Below, one piece after another: positions 35,674 to 51,498 of a DNA stretch of 64,000 nt (position 1 is the stretch's first letter; the number at the start of each line of letters is the position of its first letter). Location: assembly GCF_038397715.1 (NCBI RefSeq), contig NZ_CP151633.1, positions 1,302,001 to 1,366,000 on the forward strand. The letters are read 5' to 3'. The stretch comes from Microbacterium sp. LWO14-1.2 (lineage in GTDB: Bacteria > Actinomycetota > Actinomycetes > Actinomycetales > Microbacteriaceae). Below the pieces are notes generated by a model, which was not told where the DNA came from, did not search any database, and saw only the letters and a program-made list of their open reading frames with translations. The translations under genes and the position numbers were made by a program.

Positions 35674-35964
35674 TCACCAGCGGTTCATGTTCTTGTTCTC
35701 GTTCGCCTGGCCGTCGGCAGAGTCCTGCGAGACCTGGCGTCCGATGTCGGTCAGGAGCGCCTTCATCTCGCTCAGGGCCGAGTTCCACTGCGCCTTCGCC
35801 TGGAGGTAGGCCTCCGAGGCCGAACCCGTCCAGTTGGCCTGGAGGGGCTTGAGCGCGTCCTCCATGTCGTTGAGCTTGCTCTCGATGTTGTTGGCGCCGC
35901 GGACCAGGTCGGTACCCGCCGTGTCGACAGCGCCGAACTGCATCTTGTAACCGTCGTTACCCAT
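35674..35964 (-). CDS. WXG100-family protein (EsxA-like)
   Basis: A 96-residue helical hairpin protein with the W-x-G motif as QANWTGSASEAY near residue 45, the length and pattern of WXG100 substrates. It probably forms a heterodimer with the neighbour encoded 19 bp upstream and is exported by the EccC machinery. It lacks a C-terminal YxxxD/E signal, as expected for the partner that rides along. The ATG at 35964 is chosen over a longer open frame because it gives the usual WXG100 length. The C-terminus is polar and Asn-rich. Confidence 0.93.
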   Translation of the reverse strand: MGNDGYKMQFGAVDTAGTDLVRGANNIESKLNDMEDALKPLQANWTGSASEAYLQAKAQWNSALSEMKALLTDIGRQVSQDSADGQANENKNMNRW

Positions 35965-35983: not shown

Positions 35984-36295
35984 TCAGCCGAGACGGCCCA
36001 TGAACTTGTTCTGAGCCTGCGCCGACGCGTCGTCGGTCTGGGTGTAAGCAGACTGCGAGTCGCGCAGGTTCTGCTCGAACGTGTCGAGCGCGTTCGTGAT
36101 CTTCCGCGACTTCTCCTGCCACGCCTGGAAGGTCTGCTGGAACGCAGCGGCGCCCGAGCCGGCCCAAGACGCACCGATGCCGGAGAGCTGGCTCTGAATC
36201 GAGTTCAGCTCACCGATGATGTCCGTTTTCGAACTGCTGACGATGCTGGCACCTTGCTGCAGGGCACCATCCGCTGCAGAGACTTCTCCTGCCAC
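35984..36295 (-). CDS. WXG100-family protein with YxxxD signal (EsxB-like)
   Basis: A 103-residue WXG100 protein. The turn motif is ASWAGSGAAAF, and the C-terminal helix ends with YTQTD, which fits the YxxxD/E export signal recognised by EccC. The start is decided by the ribosome site: AGGAGG lies 5 bp before the GTG at 36295, whereas an in-frame GTG at 36301 overlaps it. It precedes the EsxA-like gene by 19 bp. Upstream is a promoter with the palindrome shared by two other operons of the locus. Confidence 0.93.
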   Translation of the reverse strand: MAGEVSAADGALQQGASIVSSSKTDIIGELNSIQSQLSGIGASWAGSGAAAFQQTFQAWQEKSRKITNALDTFEQNLRDSQSAYTQTDDASAQAQNKFMGRLG

Positions 36296-36382: not shown

Positions 36383-36427
36383 ACCTTACGGGTCAGGTGC
36401 GGCGCTGCCCATGGGTAGCTCTGCCCA
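36383..36427 (-). promoter_or_regulatory. esx promoter with shared palindrome (site a)
   Basis: On the coding strand TGGGCAGAGCTACCCA (36427-36412) lies 23 bp upstream of a TAAGGT -10 hexamer (36388-36383). The 36296-36457 gap otherwise holds only the leader. The same layout recurs at 45201-45246 and 50173-50217. Confidence 0.7.
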
Positions 36428-36457
36428 CCTGCCGGTCGAACCTCGGACTCATCGTCG

Positions 36458-39400
36458 TCAGAGGTGGGACGAGGGCGCGTACGCGAGCTGCATGGTCTGC
36501 ACCCCGCGCTCGCGCGTGATGACCTTGGCCCGACCGGGCACGGCCGGCGTCGCCTTGACGTTGCCGATGAGCGGCCCCTCGTCGGGGCTTCCCGACAGGA
36601 GGATGCCGGGAGAGGCCAGATCGCGCAGCGTCTGCATCACCGGCTCGAACGTCGCGCGGGACGCACCGCCGGAACGGCGGGCGAGCACGAGATGCAGGCC
36701 CACGTCGGTGGCCTGCGCGAGCAGGGGCTGCAGCACCGCGATCGGGTTGCCCGACTGCGTGTTCACGAGGTCGTAGTCGTCGACCAGCACGTAGACCTCC
36801 GCCCCCGTCCACCAGGACCGGTCGCGGAGCTGCTGCGGCGTCACATCCGGACCGGGCAGTCGTCCGCGCAGATACTCCGCCAGGCCGGCGAGCTCCTCCG
36901 AGGCCTGCTGCGCCGTCGTGTAGTAGCCGGCGAGGTATTCGTCGGGGATCTCCGAGAGCAGGGCACGGCGGTAGTCGACGACGAACACCTGCGCCGTCTT
37001 CGGGGTGGTCGTGCGCATGACCTCGCGCGCGAAGGCGCGCAGGAAGCTCGACTTGCCCGACTGACTGTCGCCGAAGACATACAGGTGCGGGTTGCGACGC
37101 ACGTCGAACGCGGTGGGCGCCAGCTCCGCCTCGTCGACCCCCAGGAGCACCTGGCTCTCGAGCGGCGTGCCGGCGGCGAGCTGCTGCAGACGCGGCAGCT
37201 CCAGCATCTCGGGCAGCAGACGGAGCTTGGGAGCCTGCGGCCCCTTCCACGCCGCATTGACCCGCTCGATCAGATGCTCGACGCCCTCACCGAGGGTCTC
37301 CGGGTCCCCGGACCCGTCCACGCGGGGCAGGGCCGTCAGCATGTGGTGCTTCGACGGGGCGAGGCCTCGGCCCGGCCGCCCGAGCGGCACGTTGGCGGCG
37401 ACCTTGCGGTCGATCTCCGAGTCGGTCGTGTCGCCGAGACGCAGCTCGAGCTTCGATCCGAAGGTGTCGCGGATGGCGGTGCGGAAGTCCATCCAGCGGG
37501 TCGTCGTCACGATCAGGTGCACGCCGAACGTCAGCGCCCGACCGGCGAGCGCCTGGATGCCGAACTCCATCTCGTCGAACTCGGCGCGGATCGTCGGCCA
37601 GCCGTCGATGACGAGGAAGACGTCGCCGTACCCGTCGTCGGCCTGCCCCCTGGCACGCAGTCGCCGGTACGTCTCGATCGAGTCGATGGAGTTCGCGGTG
37701 AAGTAGCGCTCGCGGGCGTTGACGATCCCCACGACCTCCTGGAACATGCGTCGCAGGACGTCGGGCTGGTTCCTGCCGGCGACCCCTGCGACGTGCGCCA
37801 TCTTGCCGAACGGCACGAACGTGCCGCCCCCGAAGTCCATGACGTAGAACTGCACCTCCTGCGGGGTGTGGGTCAGGGCGATGCCGGTGAGGACGCTGCG
37901 AGCCAGTGTGCTCTTGCCGCTCCGCGCCCCGCCGACGATGGCGAGGTGACCGCCTGCACCGGTGAGGCTCATGACGAGGCTGTCGCGACGCTGCTCGAGC
38001 GGCCGGTCGACGATGCCGAGAGGGATGGTCAACGGTCCCTGCGCGCGCCAGCGCGGCGAGATGAGACCCAGCTGCGGGTCCTCGACCAGGTCGCCGAGCA
38101 TCTCGTCGAAGGTGGGCGGAACGTCGAGCGGGGGCAGCCACACCTGATGCGCGGGCACGCTCCGACCCTTCATGAGCGAGACGGCGATGTCGAACGTCAC
38201 GCGCTTCTCCGGGGCCTCGCCGGCAGCAGCGCCCAGAGCGAGTTGCGGCTCCTCGGCGTCCTCCTGCACGTGCACGGGGGCGGCGGTGAAGGAGCGCGCC
38301 TCGATCGCGCGGACCGGCAGGTCGCTCCCCGGTGCCTCCGCCGTCGCGCCGGGCTTGCGCCGGCGCGTCTTCGGCGGGGCGGAGACGTACGCCGCACGGA
38401 ACTGGGTGAGCGTCTCGGCATCCGACTTCAGGATGCCGTGGCCACCGCCTCCGGGAAGGGTGAACGCGTCCGGCACGCCGATGACCGCACGCGAGTCGGC
38501 GCCGGAGAAGGTCTTCAGACCGATCCGGTACGAGAGGTGCGAGTCGAGGCCACGGAGCTTGCCCTCCTCCAGACGCTGCGTCGAGAGCAGGAGGTGCACC
38601 TGCAGCGACCGACCGAGGCGGCCGATCGCGACGAACAGCTCGGTGAAGTCCGGCTTCGCGGCGAGCAGCTCGGAGAACTCGTCGGCGACGATCAGCAGCG
38701 CGGGCAGCGGCTTGAGATCGGTGCGACCGCCCTTGCGCGCGGTCTCGTAGTCGGTCACGTTCGCGAAGTTGCCGGCGTCGCGGAGCAGCTCCTGCCGACG
38801 CGTCATCTCGCCCTGGATCGCGTCCTGCATGCGGTCGACGAGCGTGAGGTCGTCGCCGAGGTTCGTGATGACCGCCGACACGTGCGGCATATCGGCCATG
38901 CCGGCGAAGGTCGCACCGCCCTTGAAGTCGATGAGGACGAAGTTGAGGGCCTCGGACGAGTGGGTCATCGCCAGCGACAGCACCAGGGTGCGCAGCACCT
39001 CCGACTTCCCCGATCCGGTGGCGCCGATCAGCATGCCGTGCGGGCCCATGCCCTGCTGCGCGGATTCCTTGAGGTCGAGCACCATCGGCTGCCCCGTGGA
39101 GGTGAGCCCGATCGGCACCCGCAGCCGGTCCCGGGCGGAGCGCGGCTTCCACGCCACCTCCGGGTCGAAGTCGCGCACGTCCGGCAACGACAGCAGGTCG
39201 GTGAGCTCGGCGCTGATCGTGCGGGCACCGCCGGCATCCTCGTCCTGCGCCGCCTCGCCGAGGCCGGTGAGCCGCCGCGCGACCGCCTCGGCCGATGCGA
39301 TGCCGAGGAAGTCAGCGGATGCCGAGACCGCACCCACACCGCGCCGCGCGACCGTCAGCGCCGTGCCGGTCTCGCCCTCGAGGATGAGCCGGATCGTGAG

Positions 39401-40447
39401 CGGGTCGGTCAGCTGGTCCCACTCCCGAGGGATGTCGAGCACGGTCACGCCGTCCACGCCGCCCTCCTCGTTCAGCAGGTTGCCCGGCGGCAGCTCGACG
39501 CCGTCGGTGATCACCAGGATGTGCGGGACGGCTCCGCCGCCCCGGCCGCTCACCGGTCCGCGCGAACGGATGTCGGCGATCAGCGGCTCGATCTCCGCCC
39601 AGGAGGAGCCGATCCGGCGCGCGCCGCCCACGGCATCCGTCTTGCTCTCCGACTGCGCGTGCGGGAGCCACTTGACCCACTCCCAGTAGGGGAGGTCGAC
39701 GCCCGACGCGATGACCGCGACCTGCAGGTCCTCCGGCGCGGCGAAGGTCACCAGCTGCGCGATCATGGCCCGCGCGAGGCCCCGCCCGCGCACGGTGTCG
39801 CCCACGAGCTCGATGCGCGCGCAGGTGGCGATGTTCAGACCGAACGGCAGGTCGGGCACCTGGTCGTGGGTGAGGACGAAGCGGTGCGCCGCCGAGGCGC
39901 TGACCGGGTCGAGCTGCGCGAGCGGCGGGATCGGAGCCTCGTCGAGCGTCATGACGAGCGGCTGCGTGGCCGTGCCGACCCTCGTCACCAGGAACTGCGG
40001 GTCGCCGACCGGCCGCTCCCACACGCGGGACCCCTCCTCCACGATGAAGGGCAGGGAGTCGGGGGCCGGCAGCATCCACTCCTCGTAGCGGCGCTGGCGA
40101 GACGCCACCTCGCGGACGGCGTCGCGCGTCTCGGCGAGGTAGGCGAGGTACTCGCGGCGGGTGTTCTCGACGTTGGTGGAGTGCTGCGACTTCTGCCGCC
40201 ACATCTGCCCGCCGACCATCGACAGCGCCATGAACAGGAACAGCCCGCCCATGATGTAGGTGCGTGTGGCGTCGCCGCCCTGGGTGAGCGAGAGCACCGC
40301 GACGGACCCGAGGCTCCCCACCATCGGCAGTGCCATCATGAGGGTGTTCGAGGCACCTTCGGGCTTCGGGAGCTCCGGCGCCTGCTGCAGGGTGAGTTGG
40401 CCCCCGGCCGGGGGTTTCGGCGCACGGCGATTGCTGGTGGTGCTCAC
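36458..40447 (-). CDS. eccC: Type VII secretion ATPase EccC
   Basis: A 1329-residue membrane ATPase, the motor of ESX-type secretion. Two helices lie at about residues 35-80. Three FtsK/SpoIIIE-type ATPase domains follow with Walker A boxes GATGSGKS (about 475), GGARSGKS (about 839) and GDSQSGKS (about 1126). Walker B segments are FVLIDFKGG, FYVMDFGGG and VFVVDYRRA. EccCa and EccCb are therefore one chain. The last domain normally binds the YxxxD signal of WXG100 substrates. The GTG start has GAGGAGG 9 bp upstream. The gene is divergent from an EccD paralogue and followed by the esx pair. Confidence 0.96.
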   Translation of the reverse strand: MSTTSNRRAPKPPAGGQLTLQQAPELPKPEGASNTLMMALPMVGSLGSVAVLSLTQGGDATRTYIMGGLFLFMALSMVGGQMWRQKSQHSTNVENTRREYLAYLAETRDAVREVASRQRRYEEWMLPAPDSLPFIVEEGSRVWERPVGDPQFLVTRVGTATQPLVMTLDEAPIPPLAQLDPVSASAAHRFVLTHDQVPDLPFGLNIATCARIELVGDTVRGRGLARAMIAQLVTFAAPEDLQVAVIASGVDLPYWEWVKWLPHAQSESKTDAVGGARRIGSSWAEIEPLIADIRSRGPVSGRGGGAVPHILVITDGVELPPGNLLNEEGGVDGVTVLDIPREWDQLTDPLTIRLILEGETGTALTVARRGVGAVSASADFLGIASAEAVARRLTGLGEAAQDEDAGGARTISAELTDLLSLPDVRDFDPEVAWKPRSARDRLRVPIGLTSTGQPMVLDLKESAQQGMGPHGMLIGATGSGKSEVLRTLVLSLAMTHSSEALNFVLIDFKGGATFAGMADMPHVSAVITNLGDDLTLVDRMQDAIQGEMTRRQELLRDAGNFANVTDYETARKGGRTDLKPLPALLIVADEFSELLAAKPDFTELFVAIGRLGRSLQVHLLLSTQRLEEGKLRGLDSHLSYRIGLKTFSGADSRAVIGVPDAFTLPGGGGHGILKSDAETLTQFRAAYVSAPPKTRRRKPGATAEAPGSDLPVRAIEARSFTAAPVHVQEDAEEPQLALGAAAGEAPEKRVTFDIAVSLMKGRSVPAHQVWLPPLDVPPTFDEMLGDLVEDPQLGLISPRWRAQGPLTIPLGIVDRPLEQRRDSLVMSLTGAGGHLAIVGGARSGKSTLARSVLTGIALTHTPQEVQFYVMDFGGGTFVPFGKMAHVAGVAGRNQPDVLRRMFQEVVGIVNARERYFTANSIDSIETYRRLRARGQADDGYGDVFLVIDGWPTIRAEFDEMEFGIQALAGRALTFGVHLIVTTTRWMDFRTAIRDTFGSKLELRLGDTTDSEIDRKVAANVPLGRPGRGLAPSKHHMLTALPRVDGSGDPETLGEGVEHLIERVNAAWKGPQAPKLRLLPEMLELPRLQQLAAGTPLESQVLLGVDEAELAPTAFDVRRNPHLYVFGDSQSGKSSFLRAFAREVMRTTTPKTAQVFVVDYRRALLSEIPDEYLAGYYTTAQQASEELAGLAEYLRGRLPGPDVTPQQLRDRSWWTGAEVYVLVDDYDLVNTQSGNPIAVLQPLLAQATDVGLHLVLARRSGGASRATFEPVMQTLRDLASPGILLSGSPDEGPLIGNVKATPAVPGRAKVITRERGVQTMQLAYAPSSHL

Positions 40448-40529
40448 GACTGGCCCTCCTCGCGTCGCCTACTATTGTGGCAGGACGCCGAGATGAACCG
40501 GTATCGCGCGAGAACTTCGAGGGGCGGGG

Positions 40530-41864
40530 ATGTCAGCGAAGACGATTCGCCTCACCGTCGCCGACGCGAACGGACGACACGACCTCGTCGTCGCCGCTGA
40601 TTCCACCGTGTCAGAGCTCCTCGCCGTCGGCGGCGTGGACCTGCGCCGCTACGTGGGCACGACGACCTCCGGCGCGGCGATCGATCTCGACAGCACCGTC
40701 TCGGTCACGCCGGGAGACGGCGGTGTCATCTGGCTGTTCGACCGCACGCAGACCGAGGCGGCGTCGTCGCGTCGCGCCGCGCGGGCCGATGCGCCTGCCT
40801 CTCGCGCGCACCTGGGTCCGCTGCTGCTGGCACTGCTGCTCCTGATCACCGCGACCCTCGTCCTCTGCGCGGTGCTCACTCCGACGCCACTGATCGTGGG
40901 GCTGTCGGCCGTCCTGCTGCTCGCGGGCGCCGTGAGCATGCTGACCCGGCCGGTGGACTACTCGGCTCCGTCCGTGGCGTACATCGCGCCGCTGCTCGGC
41001 GGCGCTGGGGGCGCCGTCCTGCTCGCCGGCTTCCATGATGCGGGGGCCATGATCGCGGCCGGCCTCGTGGCAGGCGCCACGATCGCCTGCACCCGTCATG
41101 CCCAGGCGCAGGTGGCGGGCACCGTGCCCCGTGCGACGACGGCGGTCGTCGCCGTGCTCTGGTCGGTGTTCGCGGTCGTCGACACCGCCGCGTTCCTCGC
41201 CGAGATCCCGGCCACGACGATGACGGCCGTGCACATCGCCTGCGCGATCCCGATCTTCCACTACATGCGCGCGGCAGCACTCGACGTCGACGCGAACGAG
41301 CTGATCGACACGCCCTTCGTGATCCGCGACGCGCAGGGGCTGCGATCGGGGACTCCGATCCCGCCGTCCCCGGTGCATGCCGAGGCCGCTGCACGGCAGT
41401 ACTTCCTCGCGCGACGCCGCTCGGAAGCGGGCATCGTGATCGCCTGCACGCTCGCGATGCTGTCGGCCCTCTACGCGGTGCCGACGGCCGTCGACCGGTC
41501 GATCGAGTCGTGGTGCGTGCTGGGCGGGTCGCTCGGCGCCGGCTGCTACTTCCTCCTCACCTCGCGGACGGTGCGCAACGGCATCTCCCGAGCAGCCGCC
41601 CTGGTCACCGGGACCGTCATCGCGGCCATCTCGGCGACTGCCCTCATCCTCGCCCTGCAGCCCAGTGGGCTGCTGGTCTCGCTTGCGCTCCTGCTGGCGG
41701 GCGTCGTGGTCGGATGCCTGACGGTGCCGCTCGCCCGAGACTGGCGGTCGCTCGGATGGTCGCGCACCGGTGACATCGTCGAAGGGCTGCTCCTCGCGCT
41801 GGCCCCGGCCGCCCTGCTGTACGGCTCCGGGATCGCCGGACAGATTCTGGAGGTCTTCTCGTGA
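40530..41864 (+). CDS. EccD-like type VII membrane protein (paralogue 1)
   Basis: A 444-residue protein with a short ubiquitin-like N-terminal domain (TIRLTVADANGRHDLVV, residues 5-75) and about 11 membrane helices from residue 90, the layout of EccD. Residues about 245-295 form a cytoplasmic loop (DTPFVIRDAQGLRSG). It is one of two EccD-like proteins in this locus and lacks close identity to the other. It is translated ahead of an RDD-FHA gene with a GTGA overlap and is divergent from eccC across an 82-bp gap. The two may alternate or form a mixed channel, which is inference. Confidence 0.82.
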   Translation: MSAKTIRLTVADANGRHDLVVAADSTVSELLAVGGVDLRRYVGTTTSGAAIDLDSTVSVTPGDGGVIWLFDRTQTEAASSRRAARADAPASRAHLGPLLLALLLLITATLVLCAVLTPTPLIVGLSAVLLLAGAVSMLTRPVDYSAPSVAYIAPLLGGAGGAVLLAGFHDAGAMIAAGLVAGATIACTRHAQAQVAGTVPRATTAVVAVLWSVFAVVDTAAFLAEIPATTMTAVHIACAIPIFHYMRAAALDVDANELIDTPFVIRDAQGLRSGTPIPPSPVHAEAAARQYFLARRRSEAGIVIACTLAMLSALYAVPTAVDRSIESWCVLGGSLGAGCYFLLTSRTVRNGISRAAALVTGTVIAAISATALILALQPSGLLVSLALLLAGVVVGCLTVPLARDWRSLGWSRTGDIVEGLLLALAPAALLYGSGIAGQILEVFS

Positions 41865-43405
41865 CCGTCTCCCCGCCCGCCGCTCCGCTGCGATCGCGGA
41901 CGCGAACGACTCCCCCGCCCGTGCCGACGACGATCGCCGCCCCCGCGACGTCCGGCCAGCGCGCCGGTGCGTACCTGATCGACGTCGCGATCGTGGCAGC
42001 CGTGGCCGTCGCGATCTGGTTCACCACGGGATCGCTCGTCCTCGTGGCGGTCGCCGTGGTCGAGCTGTGGGCCATCGGATGGGTCTGGGAAGGCCACACC
42101 GGCGCGACGCCGGGCAACCTCGTCTGCGGCATCCGCACCGTGCAGCGCGACGGCGATCTCAGCGTGGGAGCACTGCGGCTGTTCCCCCGGAGTCTCGCGA
42201 TGGGTCTGTCGCACGTCGTGCCCGTGCTGCTCCCGGTCGGGTTCACCGCCTCGGGTCTGCTCGACGGCCTCGCCGGCGCGCGGGTGATCGACGTCCGCAA
42301 GAGCCGCGTGATCGCGCAGAACGGAGCGCCCCGCACCCTCGATCTGACGGCACGGGTGACCGGCGCCGACTCCTCGACCACCGCCATCGCCGATCAGCCG
42401 GGCGTCATCACCCAGACCCCGCTCACGGCGGCGCCGGCCGCGATCGCCGCCCCGACGCCGACCGCGGCGCCCGCACCGCAGAGCGACGCGGGCACCGTCC
42501 CGGCCTTCGTCCTCTCGGACGGCACGGTGATCCAGGCGACCGGTCTGGGGTTCATCGGTCGGGCGCCGCGCGCCCCGGAGTCGATCCCCGACGCGATCCT
42601 CATCCGCGTCCCGGAGGGCAGCCGTTCGCTGTCCCGCACGCATGCCGCGTTCGGCCTCGAGGACGGTCAGCTGTGGGTGCAGGACCTGGGGTCGGCGAAC
42701 GGGGCGTCCGTCCGTCACGCCGACGGGACGGTCTCGGAACTCGCTCCGCACGTTCCCGGGTTCCTCGTTCCGGGGGACGTGCTCGTGCTCGACACCGATG
42801 CCGAACTGGCCTACCGACGCATCGTCGCCCGGGGCGGCCGGCCGACCGGATCCGCGTCGGACGCACCCTCGGTCTCGGCCAGGCTCGGGCCTGCGCAGAC
42901 CCCGGCGGCTCCGGCCACACCGGATGCGGCCCCACAGATCGCGCACCCCGCGCCCGCGCCGACAGCCGAGCCGGTACCGCCGGCGCCCGAGCCTGCAGCG
43001 CCCGCGGCCGCGGCGCCCGCGGCCGCGGCGCCCGCGCCGACTCCGGCACCTCCTGCCCCCGTGGCAGCAGCACCGGTCATCGCCCTGCTGTTCCAGGACG
43101 GGACGACCGTGCCCATCCACGGCCTCGGCTACATCGGACGCGCGCCGCGTCTGCCGGAAGGCGAGCGGGCGGATGCCGTACTCGTCGCCGTTCCGGACGG
43201 AGACCGCTCGGTCTCGCGCACGCACGGACGATTCGGCATCGTCGACGGGCAGACCTGGTTCGAGGATCTCGGGTCGGGCAACGGCTCGTCGCTGCGCACC
43301 GAGGACGGCCGGACCGGACCGATGACGCCCCACCAGCGATTCGGCCTGACCCCGGGCACCGTGCTGCAGCTCGGCGAATGCGTCATCCGGGTCATCGCCG
43401 TGTGA
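41861..43405 (+). CDS. RDD membrane protein with two FHA domains
   Basis: A 514-residue protein. Residues about 30-145 form an RDD-type membrane domain (GQRAGAYLIDVAIVAAVAV, then GATPGNLVCGIRTV). Two cytoplasmic FHA domains follow, each with GRAPR, a Ser/His loop (SLSRTHAAF and SVSRTHGRF), and DLGSxNG (DLGSANG, DLGSGNG). FHA domains bind phosphothreonine, so this protein should dock onto targets of the Ser/Thr kinase encoded at 54999-56630. An Ala/Pro-rich spacer joins the two. The GTG start has GGAGG 7 bp upstream and overlaps the EccD-like stop. Confidence 0.92.
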   Translation: MTVSPPAAPLRSRTRTTPPPVPTTIAAPATSGQRAGAYLIDVAIVAAVAVAIWFTTGSLVLVAVAVVELWAIGWVWEGHTGATPGNLVCGIRTVQRDGDLSVGALRLFPRSLAMGLSHVVPVLLPVGFTASGLLDGLAGARVIDVRKSRVIAQNGAPRTLDLTARVTGADSSTTAIADQPGVITQTPLTAAPAAIAAPTPTAAPAPQSDAGTVPAFVLSDGTVIQATGLGFIGRAPRAPESIPDAILIRVPEGSRSLSRTHAAFGLEDGQLWVQDLGSANGASVRHADGTVSELAPHVPGFLVPGDVLVLDTDAELAYRRIVARGGRPTGSASDAPSVSARLGPAQTPAAPATPDAAPQIAHPAPAPTAEPVPPAPEPAAPAAAAPAAAAPAPTPAPPAPVAAAPVIALLFQDGTTVPIHGLGYIGRAPRLPEGERADAVLVAVPDGDRSVSRTHGRFGIVDGQTWFEDLGSGNGSSLRTEDGRTGPMTPHQRFGLTPGTVLQLGECVIRVIAV

Positions 43406-43439
43406 GGCCAGCCCGCGGCATCCGATCGGAGCAGAAAGA

Positions 43440-43475
43440 GAAGCCGCTCACCCGCGCATGCGGGTGAGCGGCTTC
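43440..43475. terminator. Bidirectional terminator
   Basis: A perfect 16-bp stem (43440-43455 and 43460-43475) with a GCAT loop and the core AAGCCGCTCACCCGC lies between two convergent genes of the type VII locus. Confidence 0.88.
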
Positions 43476-43488
43476 GGCGTCTGGTGGA

Positions 43489-44790
43489 CTACCAGCCGAG
43501 CTCTTCGCGCCCCTCCGACGTCGAGCGTCCGGCGGCACCCGCCGAACCCATGTCGGGCACGGACTCGTCGTCGTCCGCCTCGACCTCGAACGCCATCAGG
43601 TCCTGGCCACGGCGGCGGTTGCGCTTGTCGGCGCGACCGGCTCCGCCGGCCATCGCGCCTCCGGCCATGGCACCGCCTCGGCCACCGGCCGCCGCGCCGG
43701 ACTGGGCGACGACTCCGGTCGCTCCCGGGGCTCCTGCGCCGCCCGCACCGCCTACGCCGCCAACGCCGCCGGCGATGAGGCCGGCACCGCCGCTGAGACG
43801 ATTCGCGAGGGCCGCGCCTCCCGCGAGTCCTGCACCGCCCACGACCCCGCCGACGCCTGCGCCGACCGAGCCGGCTCCGCCGCCGGTGGTGCCACCGGGG
43901 AACGCGCCGTTGCCACCCGGACTCACGCCGGGGATCTCGCCGCCGATGCCTCCGTCGATGCGGGGATCGTCGTCCCTCGGGCGGGGGAAAGGCGGCTCCT
44001 CGATGACGGGAGGGTTGACCGGAGGCTCCCGGATGATCGGCGGGCGACCGATGGTGCCGTTGTCATTGTCGTTGCCGTTGCCGCCGTTCCCGCCGCCGCC
44101 GTTGCCGCCGCCGTCGATCACCGAGCCGCCGCCGACGCTGCCGTTGCTGCCACCGCCGGAGCCGCCACCGCCGTTCACGCCGGGGTAGTCGATCGGCGTG
44201 CGCCCTCCGGGCCCCTCGCCGTCCTTCGGTTCGTCGGTCGGCTTGTGCTCGTCGTAGTCGCTCGTCGGCATCCCGTCGATGATCTCCTGCAGACGCTGGT
44301 CGAGGGCGTCCGCGAGCTTGCGGGCCTCCTCTTCCTGGGCCGCGGCCGCCTGGTCCAGGTAGTGCTGCTGGGCCTGAGCGGGGGTCATCGTCACGCCCGG
44401 CGACACCTGCACCGGGCTGTCGGTCTTCGCCGCCATGTCGATCGTGTTCTGCTGCTCGGCGGAGAGCCCGGTTCCCGGAAGACCGGAGGTGCCGCTCGCC
44501 GTCTGCTGAAGGGCCTCGTCGGCTTCCGCGATGGCGGTGTTGAGCGCCGCCTGGTACTCGCCGAAGCTGACCAGGTCCTTCCGGATCTTCGTGAGAGCCT
44601 CGGCGACGGTCATGCCGAATTTGCCCTCGAAGGCCTCCGTCCTCGCGGCCTTCTGCACGTTCGCCGCCACCGTGTCGACAGCCTCGGAGGCAGCGGCGCG
44701 CTGCACGGACTGAGTGGTCCGCACAACCACGACGGCGAAGTCCGCGCGATTGTTCTGCAGACGGTCGAGTCGCTCGACGTTCTTTCCCAT
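43489..44790 (-). CDS. Type VII locus protein with helical N-terminus and Gly-rich C-terminus
   Basis: A 433-residue protein of no family I recognise. Residues 1-185 are alpha-helical (opening MGKNVERLDRLQNNRADF), similar in feel to LXG/EspB-type helical hairpins. Residues about 205-400 are dominated by Gly, Pro, Asn and Asp repeats. The C-terminus is acidic with a basic patch (DKRNRRRGQD). There is no signal peptide. Position directly after a WXG100-like gene and before a strong terminator suggests a secreted substrate or a scaffold of the apparatus. The ATG at 44790 has GGGGAG 6 bp upstream. Confidence 0.8.
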   Translation of the reverse strand: MGKNVERLDRLQNNRADFAVVVVRTTQSVQRAAASEAVDTVAANVQKAARTEAFEGKFGMTVAEALTKIRKDLVSFGEYQAALNTAIAEADEALQQTASGTSGLPGTGLSAEQQNTIDMAAKTDSPVQVSPGVTMTPAQAQQHYLDQAAAAQEEEARKLADALDQRLQEIIDGMPTSDYDEHKPTDEPKDGEGPGGRTPIDYPGVNGGGGSGGGSNGSVGGGSVIDGGGNGGGGNGGNGNDNDNGTIGRPPIIREPPVNPPVIEEPPFPRPRDDDPRIDGGIGGEIPGVSPGGNGAFPGGTTGGGAGSVGAGVGGVVGGAGLAGGAALANRLSGGAGLIAGGVGGVGGAGGAGAPGATGVVAQSGAAAGGRGGAMAGGAMAGGAGRADKRNRRRGQDLMAFEVEADDDESVPDMGSAGAAGRSTSEGREELGW

Positions 44791-44801
44791 GATCTCTCCC
44801 C

Positions 44802-45167
44802 TCAGACCGCGATCGGCTTGTTGGGCCCGCCCACGGCCTTGTGGAGCAGCGTCTGGTACGCGACCTTCTGATCGGTATCGAGCTGATTCGTCTCCTGGAT
44901 CGCCTTGTCGAGGTTCACGAAGGCGTCGTTCAGCTCCAGCTGGATCGCGTCGAGCCACTTGAGCGCGGACTGATACCTCTCGCCCAGTGCGGCGACGAGG
45001 TCTACCGATTTGCCGTCCGCGGTCCAGAGGGACGCGGTCTGCCCCTCCGAGAGATGCTCGAGCGTGGTGCGCGACTGAACCAGGGTGTCCCAGGCCTCTT
45101 TGATGAGGTCGATCTGAGTCTGGGCCGTCTCCTCGTCCATACCGAAGTCTGGAACCATCATGATCAT
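44802..45167 (-). CDS. WXG100-like helical protein
   Basis: A 121-residue helical protein. ASLWTADGKSVDL in the middle resembles a W-x-x turn between two helices, a relaxed form of the WXG hairpin, and the size fits the family's longer members. No YxxxD signal is evident. GGGGGAG 4 bp before the ATG at 45167 decides the start. It is 11 bp ahead of the Gly-rich protein gene and has its own promoter with the shared palindrome. It is probably a substrate or chaperone partner of the next protein. Confidence 0.8.
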   Translation of the reverse strand: MIMMVPDFGMDEETAQTQIDLIKEAWDTLVQSRTTLEHLSEGQTASLWTADGKSVDLVAALGERYQSALKWLDAIQLELNDAFVNLDKAIQETNQLDTDQKVAYQTLLHKAVGGPNKPIAV

Positions 45168-45200
45168 TGCGCTCCCCCTCCGACGATCCTGAGCATCACG

Positions 45201-45246
45201 ATGATAGCCCGGGTCGTCGCTCGTTCTCCATGGGGAGACCTCCCCA
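45201..45246 (-). promoter_or_regulatory. Promoter with shared palindrome (site b)
   Basis: TGGGGAGACCTCCCCA (45231-45246) lies 24 bp upstream of the -10 hexamer TATCAT (complement of 45201-45206). The palindrome is nested in a longer perfect inverted repeat, 45222-45255 with 15-bp arms and a four-base centre, giving the strongest operator-like site in the window. Confidence 0.75.
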
Positions 45247-45302
45247 TGGAGAACGCGCATCAGCGCTGGGCGGTCATGACCCTCGACGGACGAACGCTCA
45301 CA

Positions 45303-46034
45303 CTACGGCTGAGGGTCGCACGTGAGCACCGCATCGGTGATCGCCTTCTCCGCGGCCGCGCGTTCGGACTCGGGCGGGTCATCGCCGACGATGATGAGCC
45401 GCAGCGCCTCATCCGACAGGTCGGAGTCGTACAGGAACTGCCCCACACAGGGATAGAACTCGGGCATGTCGTCGTATGTCGTGACGCCGCCGGCCCTGAT
45501 CGTCGCGGCGAACTCCTCGGCTATCTCCTCCGGTGACGGGCGGCTGTCGCTCGCGTCGGTGGACGGATCCGAAGGCTCGGCGGAGGGCGACGGGACGCTC
45601 GTGGCCGGAGCCGTATCGATCGGCGCCGGCGCGTTCGCCAGCAGGGTCACGACGAGGACGACGACTCCGATCACGCCACCCACGACGGACAGGATCATGC
45701 CCACGATCGACGGCCACTTCGCCGCACCCTTCGTGAACAGACCGATCAGCGACACCACGAAGCCCGCGAGCAGAAGGACCACGCCGATCCCGAACACGAC
45801 AGGGATGCAGGCCAGGATCGTGCCGAGCACGGCCAGACCCAGTCCGACGAACCCGAGGATCGGCGACCGGCGGGCTGCTGCGGGCGGAGCGGAGGGAGCC
45901 TGCGCCTGCGCGCTCGCACCGGGCTGCGGGGAGCCTGCGTCGTGAACGGGCGCGTAGTCGTCGGTCCACCGTGCACCGTCCCACCAGCGCTGTCGCCCTG
46001 AACCGTCGTCGTACCACCCAGCCGGCATGCTCAT
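45303..46034 (-). CDS. DUF2510 membrane protein
   Basis: A 243-residue protein. The N-terminal PAGWYDDGSGRQRWWDGARW is the DUF2510 motif common on actinobacterial membrane proteins. Three hydrophobic segments between about residues 58 and 132 are followed by a Ser/Pro/Thr-rich linker and a small exported domain (FYPCVGQFLYDSDLSDEAL) with two Cys that could pair. The function is unknown. It sits among type VII genes and may be an accessory envelope protein. GGAGG lies 8 bp before the ATG, and a TAGGAT -10 (complement of 46080-46085) lies upstream. Confidence 0.85.
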   Translation of the reverse strand: MSMPAGWYDDGSGRQRWWDGARWTDDYAPVHDAGSPQPGASAQAQAPSAPPAAARRSPILGFVGLGLAVLGTILACIPVVFGIGVVLLLAGFVVSLIGLFTKGAAKWPSIVGMILSVVGGVIGVVVLVVTLLANAPAPIDTAPATSVPSPSAEPSDPSTDASDSRPSPEEIAEEFAATIRAGGVTTYDDMPEFYPCVGQFLYDSDLSDEALRLIIVGDDPPESERAAAEKAITDAVLTCDPQP

Positions 46035-46095
46035 GCGCTCACCCTCCTCGTCGCTGCGGTCCGCATCACGCGAACACCCATCCTACGGCGGAGCG

Positions 46096-46848
46096 TCAGC
46101 TGACGACGGCGCCCTGGGGATCGAACGCCTCGAGCAGTTCGAGATCATCCGGCGTCACGATGCGCGCACCGACGGCATGCTCGACGAGGCGCGAGCGCAC
46201 GGCATCCGGCATCCGTCCCTCGGAGTCTCGATGCAGGCCGCGCACGCCATGCCGCGCGAACTTGTCGCACAGGCTTCCGGCCCTGCGCTCGAGCTTGGCC
46301 AGCGGCCACCCCAGGCGGACCGCCACGTCGCCCATCGGCGGCAGGCGCACGGACCCCTGGGCCGCCTGGCGGAGCATCGGCTCCGCGAGGGCGGTGAGCA
46401 CGATCTTCTGCACCGGGGAGAGGAGACCGACCACGTCTGCCTCGTCGGGCGTCGACGCCCACGGGGTGGACACCTGATAGAACGGGGACTCCGTCGACAG
46501 CTCGATCTCATACGTCGTCGGCCCCGCGGTGAACATCACCGTGGTCGCCGGGAACACCAGCGGCGTCGACTCCCCGGGCGCGAGCAGCGACTGCGCCATC
46601 CCGTCGGCGGACGCGACGGAGGCCGTCAACCGCGATCCGACGTTCGACAGCCACCAGATGCCCTCGCGCTGCTCGAGTTCCAGGAAGCGCCGGTGCACGT
46701 ATTGGTTGTCGTCCATGGCGAGGTCGGCGCCCCGCCCGATGACGAACGTCGAGCCGGCCGGGATGCGCTTCCGCCGACCACCGAAATCGAGGTCGATCGC
46801 CGCGCCCGCCTGGGTCTCCCGGCTCGCCGTCCCTCCCGAGTCCGCCAT
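46096..46848 (-). CDS. Divergent FHA domain with C-terminal HTH (paralogue 1)
   Basis: A 250-residue cytosolic protein. Residues about 25-115 look like a degenerate FHA fold: FVIGRGADLAMDD, then VHRRFLELE where FHA domains have SRxH, and WWLSNVGSRLTA where they have DLGSTNG. Residues about 145-240 form a helix-turn-helix-like region (SPVQKIVLTALAEP, VAVRLGWPLAKLERR, LCDKFARHGVRGL). A paralogue lies at 54253-55002 with the same order. It could read a phospho-signal and bind DNA, making it a candidate regulator of the shared palindromes, which is inference. The ATG follows the previous stop by 2 bp. Confidence 0.8.
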   Translation of the reverse strand: MADSGGTASRETQAGAAIDLDFGGRRKRIPAGSTFVIGRGADLAMDDNQYVHRRFLELEQREGIWWLSNVGSRLTASVASADGMAQSLLAPGESTPLVFPATTVMFTAGPTTYEIELSTESPFYQVSTPWASTPDEADVVGLLSPVQKIVLTALAEPMLRQAAQGSVRLPPMGDVAVRLGWPLAKLERRAGSLCDKFARHGVRGLHRDSEGRMPDAVRSRLVEHAVGARIVTPDDLELLEAFDPQGAVVS

Positions 46849-46850
46849 CG

Positions 46851-47702
46851 TCACGCCGTGTGACGGGGCCAGGCCCCGCCGGGGAAGGCGCTGACCGCAC
46901 CGAGCTCGTTCGTGACCTGGGTCATGAAGTCGGCCGCGGCCTGGTTGGCGGTCAGGATGATGTTCACGAGGTTCACGACGTCGGCGATGAACGAGACGAC
47001 CTCCATGATGATCGTGGCCACACCGCCCGGCGCGCCCCACACCGACACGATCTCCGCGATGCCGAGGCCGACGCCGACGGCGGTGGTGAGAGCGGCGATC
47101 GAGAACGCGACCCAGAAGTCCACGATCGCGTCCGCGAACGTGTTCAGCTGCTCGTCGATCATCGTGCACTTGGCGTAGATGCTGTCGGATGCCGGCTGCT
47201 GCAGCTCGACGCGCGCCGAGTAGGCGTTGTACGCCGCACCGGTCCAGTGACCGGTGCTCGGGAGCGAGGAGAGCACCACGGTGGAGGTCGCGACGGTCGC
47301 CGGCGTGCCGACGCTCTGGACCCAGCTGATGCCTGTCTGGCGGAGAGTGGTCGGACTTCCCACGTAGGCGAAGATCTCCGCCGTCTTCGAGATGGCCTCG
47401 TTCACCTTCTCGAACATCCTGCGGATCAGGTCGTTGATGCGGTCGATCAGGTCGCCGATCAGCGGGATGTGGCCGGCGAGCTCGAGGATGCCGTTGATGA
47501 GGTCGACGACCGAGCTCGCGCCGTCGACGAACTCGGTGAACTTCGATCGAGAGCGCTCGACGTCCCCGGCGTTGTCACCGCCGCCGTGGGGCGTGCTGCG
47601 GCCGGAGGGGGCGCCGGGACCGTCCCCGTGCGGGGTGGTGCGACCGACAGGCGCGTCGGGACCGTCCGGGCGCGGACGCGGAGGCGAGGGAATTCTAACC
47701 AT
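46851..47702 (-). CDS. Type VII locus protein with WTG motif and helical hydrophobic tail
   Basis: A 283-residue protein with no clear family. A Pro/Gly-rich N-terminus (residues 1-50) precedes helices (VVDLINGILELAGHIP). GHWTGAAYNAYSARV near residue 150 fits the WXG hairpin turn. Hydrophobic amphipathic helices (AFSIAALTTAVGVGLGIAEI) follow and could insert in membranes. It has no signal peptide. Within the operon between a coiled-coil EspC-like gene and an FHA-HTH gene, it is probably a secreted substrate. Confidence 0.8.
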   Translation of the reverse strand: MVRIPSPPRPRPDGPDAPVGRTTPHGDGPGAPSGRSTPHGGGDNAGDVERSRSKFTEFVDGASSVVDLINGILELAGHIPLIGDLIDRINDLIRRMFEKVNEAISKTAEIFAYVGSPTTLRQTGISWVQSVGTPATVATSTVVLSSLPSTGHWTGAAYNAYSARVELQQPASDSIYAKCTMIDEQLNTFADAIVDFWVAFSIAALTTAVGVGLGIAEIVSVWGAPGGVATIIMEVVSFIADVVNLVNIILTANQAAADFMTQVTNELGAVSAFPGGAWPRHTA

Positions 47703-47735
47703 GATGACGTCTTCTTCCAGTCGTGGAGTCTGCGA

Positions 47736-49382
47736 TCAGCTGTTCAGTCGGGACTGCCAGGCAGCCGTCGCCGGCTGGGCGGTCACCGGTGTGCCGAGGA
47801 GGTCGTCGGGCTGGGGATCGACCGATCCGGCACCCTCGTCGGTCGCGGTCGGGTCGGTGCCGTCGACATCCACGCCTGCGTCGGCATCCGGGCCGGCGTC
47901 CGGGCCGGCGTCGACGCCTCCGTCGGCATCCGCGCCCGGGGTCTCGCCGGCTCCGCCGTCGGTCGCTTCCGCCGGGACATCGGCCGGGTTCTCCGCCTGG
48001 TCCTCGGGCACGACGCCCGTGTCGCCGGCGCCGTCCGTGGCATCCGTTCCGTCGATGCCTCCGTCGATGTCGCCGTCGACGTTCGCCTCGCCGCCGACCT
48101 CCGCGACACCGCCGCGGTCTCCGTGGTCGAGACCGGCAGCCTCGTGGTGCAGATCGGCTGCCTTGTCGCGCAGCTCGGCCGCCTTGTCGCGCAGCTCCGC
48201 GGCATCCTCCCTGGCGTCAGCCATCTCCTCGGCGGCGGCGTCGCGGCTCTCCTTCAGCTGCTCGATCCGCTCCCGGATCTCCGCGGCCTCCGCGCGCTGG
48301 GCCGAGGCGTCCGCGCGCAGCGCAGCCGACTCGGTGCGGGTCTGCAGCGCACCGGCGTCGTCGCCCGCGGCTTCCTGCTGCGTCGCCTTCAGGTCGAGCT
48401 CGGTCGCGCGGCGCTCGGTGTCGGTCGCGCTGCGATCGAGTGCGGACGCCTGCTCCTCGAGCTCGTCGATCTGCTTGTCGAGCGCTTCGACCTGCTCCTG
48501 CGCCTTGTCGGCGTGCTGGTCGGCCTGGTCGGCCTGCCTGTCGAGCGCGTCGGCCCGCGCATCGAGCCGGTCGGCCTTCGCATCGGCCTCGGCCCTGGCT
48601 TCGTCGTCGCCGGTCTCGCCGTCGAGCGAACCGTCCACGCGCGGGTCGTCGACCGACGGCGTGCCCCCGCCGCCTGCTCCGCCGCCGACGGATCCACCGC
48701 CGCCGGACGACCCGCCGCCGCTGCCCCCGCCGCTCCCGCCACCGCTGCCGCCGCCGTCGGGCGCGGTGTAGTCGGTGTCCACGTCCTGGTTCTGGTTCTG
48801 CGCCGACTCGACGTCGGTCGTGTCGTACGCGTCGGCGGTCAGGCGGAGCGAATCCGCGAAGCCCGTGAGGGCGTCGGGGGCGGTGCCGAGGAGCGCCACC
48901 ATGGTCGCCTGGAACGTGTTGTACGCGCTCGAGGCCTGTCCTCCGATGAAGGAGAACGCAGCCGCGTCGATCGTCAGTCCCTGGGCCGCCGAGGTGATGT
49001 CTCCGTACGACCCCGCAGCCGCGTCGAAGGCGGAGGCATCCTTGCGGAGGTACTCGGTCTCGACGTTCACCTCTCCCTCGGGCCCGAAGGTCGAGGGTGA
49101 GGGCTGCGGCGACGGGTCGGGCAGGATCGACTCCCCCGGCACGTCGTTCAGCGGCGCGGGGGCCGCCGGACGGATGCCGCCCGAGCTGCTCACGCCTCCT
49201 CCGCCGCCACCGGCCAGGTGGAATCCCGCGCTCACCATCTCGTCGAGCGGCGTCGCGGCATCGAGCACGTTGCCGGCGGCGCCGAGAAGGTCGCCGTCCA
49301 TGACGTTCTGACCGAAGTCGACGATCTCGTCGATCGGGTTCACCGCGTCGACGACATCGCCGAACGCATCTCTCAGTCCCAT
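47736..49382 (-). CDS. Candidate type VII substrate with coiled coil and YxxxD signal
   Basis: A 548-residue protein. The helical region ending DSLRLTADAYDTTDVESAQ (about residues 115-205) resembles the EspC/type VII target domain and contains YDTTD, a YxxxD export signal. A Gly/Ser spacer is followed by about 160 residues of near-continuous heptad coiled coil (KADRLDARADALDRQADQ pattern, residues about 265-425), then an acidic Asp/Gly/Ala-rich tail. There is no cleavable signal or anchor. I read it as a secreted rod-like protein. The ATG has a GGGAGAGACGC leader. Confidence 0.82.
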   Translation of the reverse strand: MGLRDAFGDVVDAVNPIDEIVDFGQNVMDGDLLGAAGNVLDAATPLDEMVSAGFHLAGGGGGGVSSSGGIRPAAPAPLNDVPGESILPDPSPQPSPSTFGPEGEVNVETEYLRKDASAFDAAAGSYGDITSAAQGLTIDAAAFSFIGGQASSAYNTFQATMVALLGTAPDALTGFADSLRLTADAYDTTDVESAQNQNQDVDTDYTAPDGGGSGGGSGGGSGGGSSGGGGSVGGGAGGGGTPSVDDPRVDGSLDGETGDDEARAEADAKADRLDARADALDRQADQADQHADKAQEQVEALDKQIDELEEQASALDRSATDTERRATELDLKATQQEAAGDDAGALQTRTESAALRADASAQRAEAAEIRERIEQLKESRDAAAEEMADAREDAAELRDKAAELRDKAADLHHEAAGLDHGDRGGVAEVGGEANVDGDIDGGIDGTDATDGAGDTGVVPEDQAENPADVPAEATDGGAGETPGADADGGVDAGPDAGPDADAGVDVDGTDPTATDEGAGSVDPQPDDLLGTPVTAQPATAAWQSRLNS

Positions 49383-49398
49383 TGCGTCTCTCCCTGGC

Positions 49399-50142
49399 TC
49401 AGCGGATCGCGCCCATGCGGCGCATCAGCTCGTGGGGGTTGTGAGCGATCTTCCGCAGCTGCTCGATCGCGGGGAAACCCTCGTACTTGTTCTCTCGCTC
49501 GCGAGCCGACATCGCCATGACGTTGTTCAGCGCCCGCACGATCTCCTTCTCGATCACACCGTCGTTGGTGTTCTTGACCCACCGCTCATCCAGCTTCACC
49601 GCGGTGATCGTGTCGCCCTCGCGGGTGACCGTGATGGTCCTCGCGGAGTTCACGCCGTCGCGCGGCTCACGAGCGCGCTGCGCACGGTGGGCGAGGAAGT
49701 CCGCCTGCTCCGCGTCGGCTGCCGCGTACATCTCGCGCAGCTGCTCACGCCCCTCGAGGCCCCAGGCGGAACTGGGGTCGGCAAGCTCGACCGGCTCGGG
49801 TGCGGCCACCGGCGACGCTCCCTCGTGGTCGGTGGTCTCGGAGTACGCCTTGAGCCACTGGGCGGCGCGCTGCTCGATGGCGGACTGGTAGCACGCGCTG
49901 ACGGCGAGCCCGAGCGATTCCTCGCCGATCGTGTCGCGCCAGTCCTCGTCGAGGACGAGCGCCTGCACGGCGCCGTTCGCGGCCAGAGTGAGCTCGACCG
50001 CGCCCTCCTCATCCTTCACGGTGATGGGCGCCAGCTGCTCCGACGCCGTGGCGAGCGCCCGCAGTTCGCGCTGCAGTTCGCCTGCCGTCTGCTGCAGCTC
50101 TGCCATCAGACGGTTGGCGTCCGCCATATCCAAGCTGACCAT
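49399..50142 (-). CDS. Tandem YbaB/EspL-like protein
   Basis: A 247-residue cytosolic protein with two YbaB-like halves. The first (residues 1-100) has the helix MADANRLMAELQQTAGEL and the strand VELTLAANGAVQALVLDEDW. The second (about 165-235) repeats the pattern with TITVTREGDTITAVKLDERW. In mycobacterial ESX-1 the YbaB-like EspL acts as an accessory or regulator of substrates, and some YbaB proteins bind DNA. It opens the substrate operon and has its own promoter with the shared palindrome. GAGGGAG lies 3 bp before the ATG. Confidence 0.82.
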   Translation of the reverse strand: MVSLDMADANRLMAELQQTAGELQRELRALATASEQLAPITVKDEEGAVELTLAANGAVQALVLDEDWRDTIGEESLGLAVSACYQSAIEQRAAQWLKAYSETTDHEGASPVAAPEPVELADPSSAWGLEGREQLREMYAAADAEQADFLAHRAQRAREPRDGVNSARTITVTREGDTITAVKLDERWVKNTNDGVIEKEIVRALNNVMAMSARERENKYEGFPAIEQLRKIAHNPHELMRRMGAIR

Positions 50143-50172
50143 GGGCTCCCTCTTCCGTAGACCGTTGACGCA

Positions 50173-50217
50173 ATCCTACGAAGCGCCGCGCGAAGGCCAT
50201 AGGGGGAGAAGTGCCCA
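50173..50217 (-). promoter_or_regulatory. Promoter with shared palindrome (site c)
   Basis: On the coding strand TGGGCACTTCTCCCCC (50217-50202) lies 23 bp upstream of the -10 hexamer TAGGAT (50178-50173). Spacing is identical to site a. The site sits just after the mycP stop and drives the YbaB-like operon. Confidence 0.7.
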
Positions 50218-50226
50218 TCCGGGCGC

Positions 50227-51498
50227 TCAGGCCCGAAGGCGTCGCGTCCGCCCGCGCGCGAGCAGCAGCACGATCACGGAGATCGTCGCCGCCGCACCGA
50301 ACCCCCATCCGACGATCTCCCTCGCGGGGTCGAGCGGATCGGCGCCCGCGTCGACCGAGACCGTCCTGGGCTCCTCGGGCGTGGGCTCGGGGGCGGCGAA
50401 CGCCGGAGAGGGAGGGCCGGGAAGCGTCCCGTCGTCGACCAGGGCGAGCGCTTCGGCGGGGCGCACCTCGCCCCATCCCACCGTGTCTGACGCCTCGGCG
50501 GGAGCGACGCGCATCGCCGCCTGCGTGAGACGGAACGCCCACTGGTCGGGGGTCTCGTCGGGATAGCGTGCGGCCACGAGCGCGGCAGCGCCCGAGACGA
50601 CGGCGGTCGCGTAGCTCGACGAGGCGGAGTCGCCGTTGAAGACGCAGTCTCCGCCGGAGATGTACGCCGAGGGCATCGACTGGCCGGGCGCCGCGATGTC
50701 GACGTGCGGACCGGCGTACGACGAATCGGCGCTCCACGTGCCGTCCCTGAGCACCGCCGCGACGGCGAGCGCACCCGGCAGCTCGCCCGGGTAGAAGTTC
50801 GCGGGGTCGGGGCGGTCGGAGTCCGCCGTGTTGCGGTTGCCCGCACTCGCGACCACCAGCGAGCCCCGCGCATGCGCGTAGTTCACGGCATCCGCGTACA
50901 GATCGGCCGACTGGTCGTCCGACAGCGAGACGTTGATGATCTGCGCGCCGTTGTCGGCGGCCCACTTGATGCCGGCCACGACCGACTGCGCGGTGGGACC
51001 GACCACGTCTCTCGACGACTGCCCGTCCTCGGGCGCCGACTCGAAGGCGCGGACCGGCATGATCTTCGCGGCGGGGGCGATGCCGACCACGCCCGACCCG
51101 TCGACCATGCGCGCGGCGATGATGCCGGCCACGGCGGTGCCGTGTCCGAAGAGGTCGTCGTCGGCTGGCGCCGAGCCGTCTCCGAACGTGCTGGCACCCG
51201 GCACCAGGGCATCCGCGAAGTGCACGTTGTCGGCATCGATGCCGGAGTCGACGACCGCGACCGTCACGCCCTGTCCGCGGCTGAACTCCCAGGCGTCTTC
51301 GAGGCCGAGCCGCTCGACGAGATAGCTCGCCGACGACACGAAGGCCCTGTCACCCGGTGTGCACTGCTGACCGGCGTCGACGACGGGGCTCGACGCGGGA
51401 TCGGTCGAGGCCGAAGGAGCGCCCGCCGCGGCACCCGCCGTGCCCAGCAGGACGGCGATCCCCAGCGCCGCGGCAGTGCGCGCGATGCGCATCCGCAT
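50227..51498 (-). CDS. mycP: Mycosin-type subtilase MycP
   Basis: A 423-residue secreted, membrane-anchored serine protease, the cap protease of ESX systems. A signal peptide (TAAALGIAVLLGTAGAAAG) is followed by the catalytic Asp in VAVVDSGID, His in FGHGTAVAGIIA, and Ser in SSSYATAVVSGAAAL. The last motif lacks the usual Pro of GTSxAxP. The oxyanion Asn is in VASAGN. A C-terminal helix (WGFGAAATISVIVLLLA) ends with basic residues. Its ATG overlaps the eccB stop by one base. Mycosins stabilise the channel and cut some substrates. Confidence 0.94.
   Translation of the reverse strand: MRMRIARTAAALGIAVLLGTAGAAAGAPSASTDPASSPVVDAGQQCTPGDRAFVSSASYLVERLGLEDAWEFSRGQGVTVAVVDSGIDADNVHFADALVPGASTFGDGSAPADDDLFGHGTAVAGIIAARMVDGSGVVGIAPAAKIMPVRAFESAPEDGQSSRDVVGPTAQSVVAGIKWAADNGAQIINVSLSDDQSADLYADAVNYAHARGSLVVASAGNRNTADSDRPDPANFYPGELPGALAVAAVLRDGTWSADSSYAGPHVDIAAPGQSMPSAYISGGDCVFNGDSASSSYATAVVSGAAALVAARYPDETPDQWAFRLTQAAMRVAPAEASDTVGWGEVRPAEALALVDDGTLPGPPSPAFAAPEPTPEEPRTVSVDAGADPLDPAREIVGWGFGAAATISVIVLLLARGRTRRLRA

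Follow-up and report, generated by a model that had tools for sequence, protein, structure and literature searches.

In mycobacteria, the substrates of the ESX secretion systems are under transcriptional control by EspR, WhiB6, and PhoP. We know of no palindrome of the kind described below in mycobacterial ESX regulation, and to our knowledge the switching-on of type VII secretion outside mycobacteria and firmicutes is largely open. The present analysis deals with a window of 64,000 nucleotides from Microbacterium sp. LWO14-1.2 (positions 1302001-1366000 of the 3.78-Mb single-contig genome, NZ_CP151633.1; G+C content 70.5%), which holds an ESX-type type VII secretion cluster. A polar palindrome stands at fixed spacing before promoters of this cluster and is conserved at the orthologous promoters of relatives; it probably serves as the operator of one dimeric DNA-binding activator just upstream of the -35 region. 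Its consensus is (A)TGGG(G/c)AG TT CTCCCCA(T), that is, ATGGGGAGTTCTCCCCAT.

Operators like this one are described for the PAS-LuxR (PimM-type) regulators of Streptomyces, which, by means of a LuxR-type domain, read a 16-bp palindrome of the form GGGA...TCCC located in the -35 region (PMC9774167). In the PAS-LuxR consensus, CTVGGGAWWTCCCBAG, GGGA and TCCC are separated by two bases, whereas four are present here, and the targets named there are antibiotic clusters, unlike the targets at this locus (PMC9774167). With its wider centre, the present element does not conform to the PimM consensus. A second likeness is to the box of CebR, a member of the LacI family. The CebR box of Streptomyces, TGGGAGCGCTCCCA, is a repressor site of cellulose genes; it shares the string GGGAG-NN-CTCCC with the present operator, but is 14 bp long, with a fixed CG centre and widely varying positions (PMC5332605). 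The sites collected here have a 16-bp core and a CG centre in only 5 of 211 cases. The TraR/LuxR box, finally, is read near -42 by an activator, a quorum-sensing regulator of proteobacteria. It is an 18-bp palindrome that would agree with the present one at six of nine half-site positions; a literature search gave no paper bearing its letters. No published description of this operator, or of type VII regulation by it, was found in full-text searches, and none of the seven papers that mention both type VII secretion and Microbacterium appears to deal with it; most subscription papers lie outside this scope, so that the negative is weak evidence.

The Palindrome and Its Position

The first-pass annotation of the window had listed three 16-mers, and these are present exactly as written, all on the minus strand and at 23, 24, and 23 bp, respectively, before -10-like hexamers of the same strand. 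Operator 1, TGGGCAGAGCTACCCA (36412..36427), lies upstream of the esx pair and is followed by TAAGGT at 36383..36388, the position of which is kept in 9/9 loci. Operator 2, TGGGGAGGTCTCCCCA (45231..45246), is followed by TATCAT (45201..45206), and operator 3, TGGGCACTTCTCCCCC (50202..50217), located upstream of a YbaB-like gene, by TAGGAT (50173..50178). Operator 4 is found 7.4 kb past the window (genome positions 1373387-1373402), 23 bp from a TAGGAT hexamer and before a gene for an Ig-like protein. All -10 boxes at the operators are putative and assigned by match to the hexamer TANNNT. Operator 2 is, in addition, enclosed by a 34-bp inverted repeat, CGTTCTCCATGGGGAGGTCTCCCCATGGAGAACG (45222-45255, minus strand), which is perfect except for its centre and whose outer arms are absent from the general consensus.

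The consensus of the first-pass annotation had been fitted to the three window sites, which makes its exact count inside the window circular; independent data were used for the tests. In the whole genome it occurs at six places, three of them in the window, and the reversed-pattern control gives none. The symmetric form TGGGGASNNSTCCCCA, referred to as the strict site, occurs 139 times in 149 genomes of the genus versus 7 times for the reversed control, and 54 of the 149 genomes contain at least one copy. Chance, or a dispersed repeat, might be invoked for such a motif, and at two mismatches a stricter symmetric form indeed shows no excess in the genome under study (14 sites versus 13 for the control). 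This explanation is contradicted by the excess in the genus, by the conservation at orthologous promoters, and by a spacing peak, and can be given virtually no weight.

The spacing peak is seen in 151 distinct strict sites pooled from all loci fetched; these are related by descent and not independent, many of them having been fetched for the palindrome and none for spacing. TANNNT is located at exactly 23 or 24 bp in 109 of them, on one side and in no case on both, and a further 12 have the hexamer only at 33 or 34 bp, approximately one helical turn more distant. Across the background gaps (0-57 bp minus 22-25 and 32-35), the mean is 0.62 TANNNT per gap and the largest value is 4. In promoter orientation, the centre dinucleotide is TT in 66 and AA in 8 of 130 deduplicated sites, and the promoter-proximal half is, at most of its positions, more conserved than the distal half, both of which argue for a polar operator.

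With the hexamer placed at -12 to -7, the operator centre falls near -43.5 (gap 23), near -44.5 (gap 24), or about 10 bases further upstream. The trait of class II activator sites, a fixed position overlapping or abutting -35 with conserved spacing to the -10 box, is thus displayed, relative to the predicted start, by the 109 sites at gap 23 or 24. From known promoter architecture, this position would fit an activator contacting RNA polymerase from one DNA face, and the suggestion of the first-pass annotation that an activator touches the polymerase here agrees with the larger collection. A repressor blocking RNA polymerase at the -35 region would be served by the same location, since the palindrome abuts or overlaps the -35 position, and the CebR box, with its similar letter pattern, is the site of a repressor (PMC5332605). 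The position of repressor sites is usually variable, however; the CebR boxes described there range from -13 to -899, with one at +1507 (PMC5332605), whereas the sites of the sampled genomes repeatedly show polarity and fall into two sharp spacing classes that differ by about one helical turn. A repressor is therefore considered unlikely.

Conservation at Orthologous Promoters

For the esx promoter, 40 loci around the best EccC matches in other genomes of the genus were fetched regardless of the motif (40 of the 42 matches above 776 bits, the omitted two being the genome under study and a second G073 copy; lower-scoring matches are not included). An esxA orthologue is located behind eccC in nine of these loci, and in each of the nine the palindrome is present, followed by TANNNT after 23 bp (eight loci) or 24 bp (one locus). 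The remaining 31 loci, with EccC proteins of 41-70% identity, contain neither an esxA match nor a site; one of them (L128) has a weak esxB match. When a loose form of the palindrome combined with TANNNT was counted over the 40 loci at gaps of 10-59 bp, nine cases were obtained, all of them at gap 23 or 24. The WXG-like gene promoters carry site and spacing in 9/9 syntenic Microbacterium relatives (protein identity 41-80%), as do the YbaB-like promoters in the same nine (53-87%), so that all syntenic relatives found retain palindrome and spacing at the esx, WXG-like, and YbaB-like promoters. The point of the first-pass annotation that one operator-like palindrome at conserved spacing precedes the substrate and accessory units is thus supported.

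The Ig-like/Fn3 gene behind operator 4 was followed by a protein search of the 149 genomes, 101 of which gave a match. Among the best 30 loci, the genome under study included, the palindrome (0-4 mismatches) is present in 30/30, with 27 at gap 23 or 24 and three at 34. Among 20 Ig-like promoters from genomes lacking a strict site, 16 have retained a variant (three mismatches or fewer) at a spacing of 23, 24, 32, or 33, and the other four have no variant. Nine of the 16 variants are identical, TGGGTGNTTGTCCCCA; this altered operator is shared by a group of Microbacterium genomes (L238-L257), and a co-evolved regulator is possible. In a named collection, which partly covers the same genomes as the other sample, site and spacing are found at 65 of 73 Ig-like loci, and four of the eight misses have a palindrome with at most three mismatches, but no -10 box at a counted gap. 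The corresponding controls gave 28 of 1460 random 300-bp pieces and, for four other gap sets, 0, 1, 3, and 4 of the 73 loci. Nearly all of the 73 loci are titled Microbacterium, the exceptions being Microbacteriaceae, Actinomycetota, and one Planococcus. The locus of the latter (JASDDH010000041.1, titled Planococcus sp. APC 4015; L337) is 76% identical to the Microbacterium Ig-like protein, and its label or assembly looks wrong.

In several relatives (L050, L034, L057, L069, L080), WXG100 genes occur in near-identical copies, every copy behind a palindrome promoter of its own. The repeats extend over distances from a few hundred bases up to several kilobases and look like the heads of consecutive cargo modules.

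Substrates and Channel

The cluster in the window comprises eccC, eccB, eccD, mycP, a WXG100 pair, genes for YbaB-like and EspC-like proteins, and FHA, RDD, PP2C, kinase, and TgpA genes. Its assignment to the ESX-type systems follows from the clustering of genes for EccC, EccB, EccD, and mycosin with those for WXG100 proteins (TIGR03924/03925, PF05108, TIGR03920, PF00082, and PF06013/TIGR03930). All genes named in this section are on the minus strand unless stated otherwise. Behind operator 1 are the genes of an esxA-like WXG100 protein (35984..36295; PF06013, E 4e-15) and an esxB-like WXG100 protein (35674..35964; TIGR03930, E 2.3e-15). Operator 2 is followed by a small helical protein that is WXG100-like by reading (44802..45167; no Pfam or NCBIfam match) and by a Gly-rich protein (43489..44790; no Pfam match). 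Operator 3 precedes a five-gene run (45303-50142), the first two genes of which encode a YbaB/EbfC-like protein (49399..50142; PF02575, E 3.7e-8) and a protein with an EspC/WXG100-like N-terminal domain (47736..49382; PF10824, E 4.6e-6).

The apparatus genes are eccC (36458..40447; TIGR03924 and TIGR03925 over cut-off), mycP (50227..51498; PF00082, with TIGR03921 below cut-off), eccB (51498..52817; PF05108), and eccD (52821..54173; TIGR03920). Directly before each of them, the palindrome is absent from the genome under study and from all nine relatives (0/9 each). Upstream of eccD, a co-directional run (54253..63999) encodes an unassigned protein (FHA-like by reading), a kinase, and FHA, PP2C, RDD, TgpA, and DUF58 proteins, and continues outside the window with moxR and, at its head, the Ig-like gene bearing operator 4. 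From the Ig-like gene through moxR, DUF58, tgpA, RDD, PP2C, FHA, kinase, and FHA-like genes, it forms one chain in which neighbouring genes overlap or are no more than about 60 bp apart; some 80 bp then lead to eccD, followed by eccB and mycP. Terminator-like sites were found nowhere on the coding strand from operator 4 to past mycP in two scans covering the chain, in which shuffled sequences gave 1.1 and 3.4 sites for both strands together. The tight chain and the lack of a terminator-like site make read-through from operator 4 into eccD-eccB-mycP plausible, although eccD may have a private promoter. In one relative, G115 (L053), esxA and eccD are divergent, and the site between them has a -10-like hexamer on each side, at gap 24 towards esxA and at gap 34 towards eccD (PF19053, PF08817).

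These data bear on the model of the first-pass annotation, in which a regulator dedicated to type VII secretion switches the substrates separately from the channel. It is in line with the site at all three substrate or accessory promoters (9/9 relatives each) and with the bare upstream regions of eccC, eccD, eccB, and mycP. That the apparatus genes do not carry the palindrome holds, however, only for the sequence directly before them, as operator 4 heads the run containing eccD-eccB-mycP, and the site at this operon head is present in 30/30 loci. Separate switching is not established given this chain and the shared esxA/eccD site of G115. Taken together with the composition of the regulon outside the cluster, as detailed below, a dedicated regulator appears improbable.

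Divergent to eccC and beside it, on the plus strand (40530-43405), are a gene for another EccD-like membrane protein, with a weak match, and one for an RDD-FHA protein.

Further Sites in the Genome

Outside the cluster, the site is carried by a second moxR/DUF58 operon (genome position 1784359, gap 33; PF07726, PF01882), by a small lipoprotein-like gene (2467491, gap 33; no Pfam match), by a membrane-protein-like gene (392280, gap 33; DUF5684 below cut-off), and by flgN-flgK (3585534; PF05130). A 77% identical orthologue of the lipoprotein-like gene in G126 has a strict site, likewise at gap 33, and for the membrane-protein-like gene, a 43% similar stretch in a protein of another family (L175) is preceded by a site at gap 24. 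In total, seven promoters of the genome have TANNNT at 23/24 or 33, four at 23/24 in the type VII region and three at 33 elsewhere; Ig-like promoters of both spacing classes exist in other genomes. The sites at moxR2, the lipoprotein, the membrane protein, and flgN, together with those of G229, a genome of another family, where proteins with a hydrophobic stretch and a MoxR ATPase are encoded behind them, speak against a regulator reserved for type VII secretion.

The box behind the flgN site is CGATAGT instead of TANNNT, which we take to be sigma-28-like. A fixed distance to the -10 box would also be expected if the motif, instead of being a regulator's operator, were the -35 element read by an alternative sigma factor. 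The motif is a palindrome of 16-18 bp, though, it occurs at two spacings, and at flgN it precedes CGATAGT; the sigma factor explanation is accordingly regarded as very unlikely. The flgN gene was found in 38 of the 149 genomes, and the palindrome (at most two mismatches) stands at 15 of the 30 flgN loci examined (L408-L437). These flgN palindromes occur in two different sequence backgrounds, which suggests gain or loss of a link to motility.

Other candidate positions in the genome were discarded. The site at 982300, with no -10 box at the spacing and a location apparently inside a coding sequence, was taken as chance, as were 1364422 (window position 62422), 3022848, 3074862, 3504606, and the rest of L386-L395, which have no TANNNT 15-45 bp to either side; and 1846486 (TTGGGAATGCTCCCCA, TAGAGT at 25 bp) falls outside both spacing classes.

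Distribution beyond the Genus

Across the order, the strict palindrome is present in 127 of 396 genomes and in 45 of 109 genera, with up to 20 copies per genome; the reversed control gives at most two in any listed genome. Within families f9, f12, f14, and f20, copy numbers vary strongly from genus to genus. In a sample of one locus per genome (30 loci, 32 sites), 17 sites are at 23/24 and one is at 33. Three site-rich genomes of three other families have 32 of 45 sites at 23/24, the remainder being at 25, at 34, or at none. Of the 14 proteins read behind sites of G229, nine contain a hydrophobic stretch of 19 residues, and LppM, LRV, and MoxR domains (one MoxR ATPase) occur. In G505, nine related proteins that form a blast cluster and have a WXG-like N-terminal look recur behind sites; eight were searched, giving one nuclease domain (PF13930), one WXG100 match below cut-off, and no Pfam match for the others. 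The operator thus extends past the genus, and the composition of its regulon seems to shift. Viral contigs were scanned for an exact 17-mer, and four of them matched, one with TAACTT at 23 bp before a doubtful frame (L440), one with TATTTT at 34 bp (L438), and two with neither.

A Possible Regulator and Its Proposed Mode of Action

As a first guess, the palindrome would be read by a GerE/LuxR-type helix-turn-helix dimer, judged from operator length, symmetry, position, and the likeness to the PAS-LuxR operators. Other dimeric helix-turn-helix families may also provide the reader, and the regulator may be unlinked to the cluster. The GerE proteins of the genome under study, G229, and G505 have no match in the window or in the secretion loci, apart from L007, which holds one such gene, and a regulator of G075. 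Reciprocal best hits of GerE proteins among the three genomes overlap only in common NarL types and a few pairs. The regulator was not found among the GerE genes of these three genomes; CRP/FNR-type and other helix-turn-helix families were considered, but not searched. In G075 (L019), the gene of a NarL-type response regulator is preceded by a strict site 23 bp before TAAACT.

In the proposed mechanism, a dimeric activator would bind the palindrome with its centre about 43-44 bp before the inferred start (gap 23/24) or, in the alternative placement (gap 33/34), about one helical turn further upstream. Being one helical turn apart, both placements would allow RNA polymerase to be contacted from the same DNA face. 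The activator would raise both the genes of type VII substrates and the Ig-like/moxR/tgpA/kinase operon running into eccD-eccB-mycP, and the same protein would also raise some envelope and flagellar genes. The role as activator site, the reading of all copies by one protein, and the joint raising of these genes are predictions from sequence.

Several observations weigh against an activator operator of this kind. Apart from the common descent of the pooled sites, 30 of the 151 strict sites fit neither spacing class, 14 of the 32 sites of the one-locus-per-genome sample are at no counted spacing, and 4 of 20 sites of G229 have no -10 box at any counted gap. Half of the flgN loci examined (15/30) lack the palindrome, some of them with 84-91% identical FlgN. 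Furthermore, the site with its spacing is present in none of 41 GerE loci (16 from the genome under study, 10 from G229, 15 from G505). The NarL-type regulator of G075 was rejected as reader, as 27 of 29 homologue loci have no candidate site and two (L301, L303) only one with four mismatches; it would at most be a member of the regulon.

Implications

On present sequence evidence, the palindrome would be a mark of type VII substrate promoters in Microbacterium and its actinobacterial relatives, shared by some genes of the cell surface and the flagellum. A more far-reaching proposal, put forward tentatively and with more doubt than confidence, is that of a master activator across much of the order which, by reading one polar palindrome at either of two positions in helical phase and before either of two types of -10 box, couples type VII substrates, envelope machinery (the Ig-like/moxR/tgpA/kinase operon and lipoproteins), and the flgN chaperone gene. 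As a precise and widely conserved element, the operator is a ready bait for finding its regulator. It lets substrates and cargo modules be listed from promoters alone, many sites preceding anonymous small WXG100-like proteins, and suggests, for actinobacteria that are common in the environment, a connection of type VII secretion with surface assembly and motility that can be tested.

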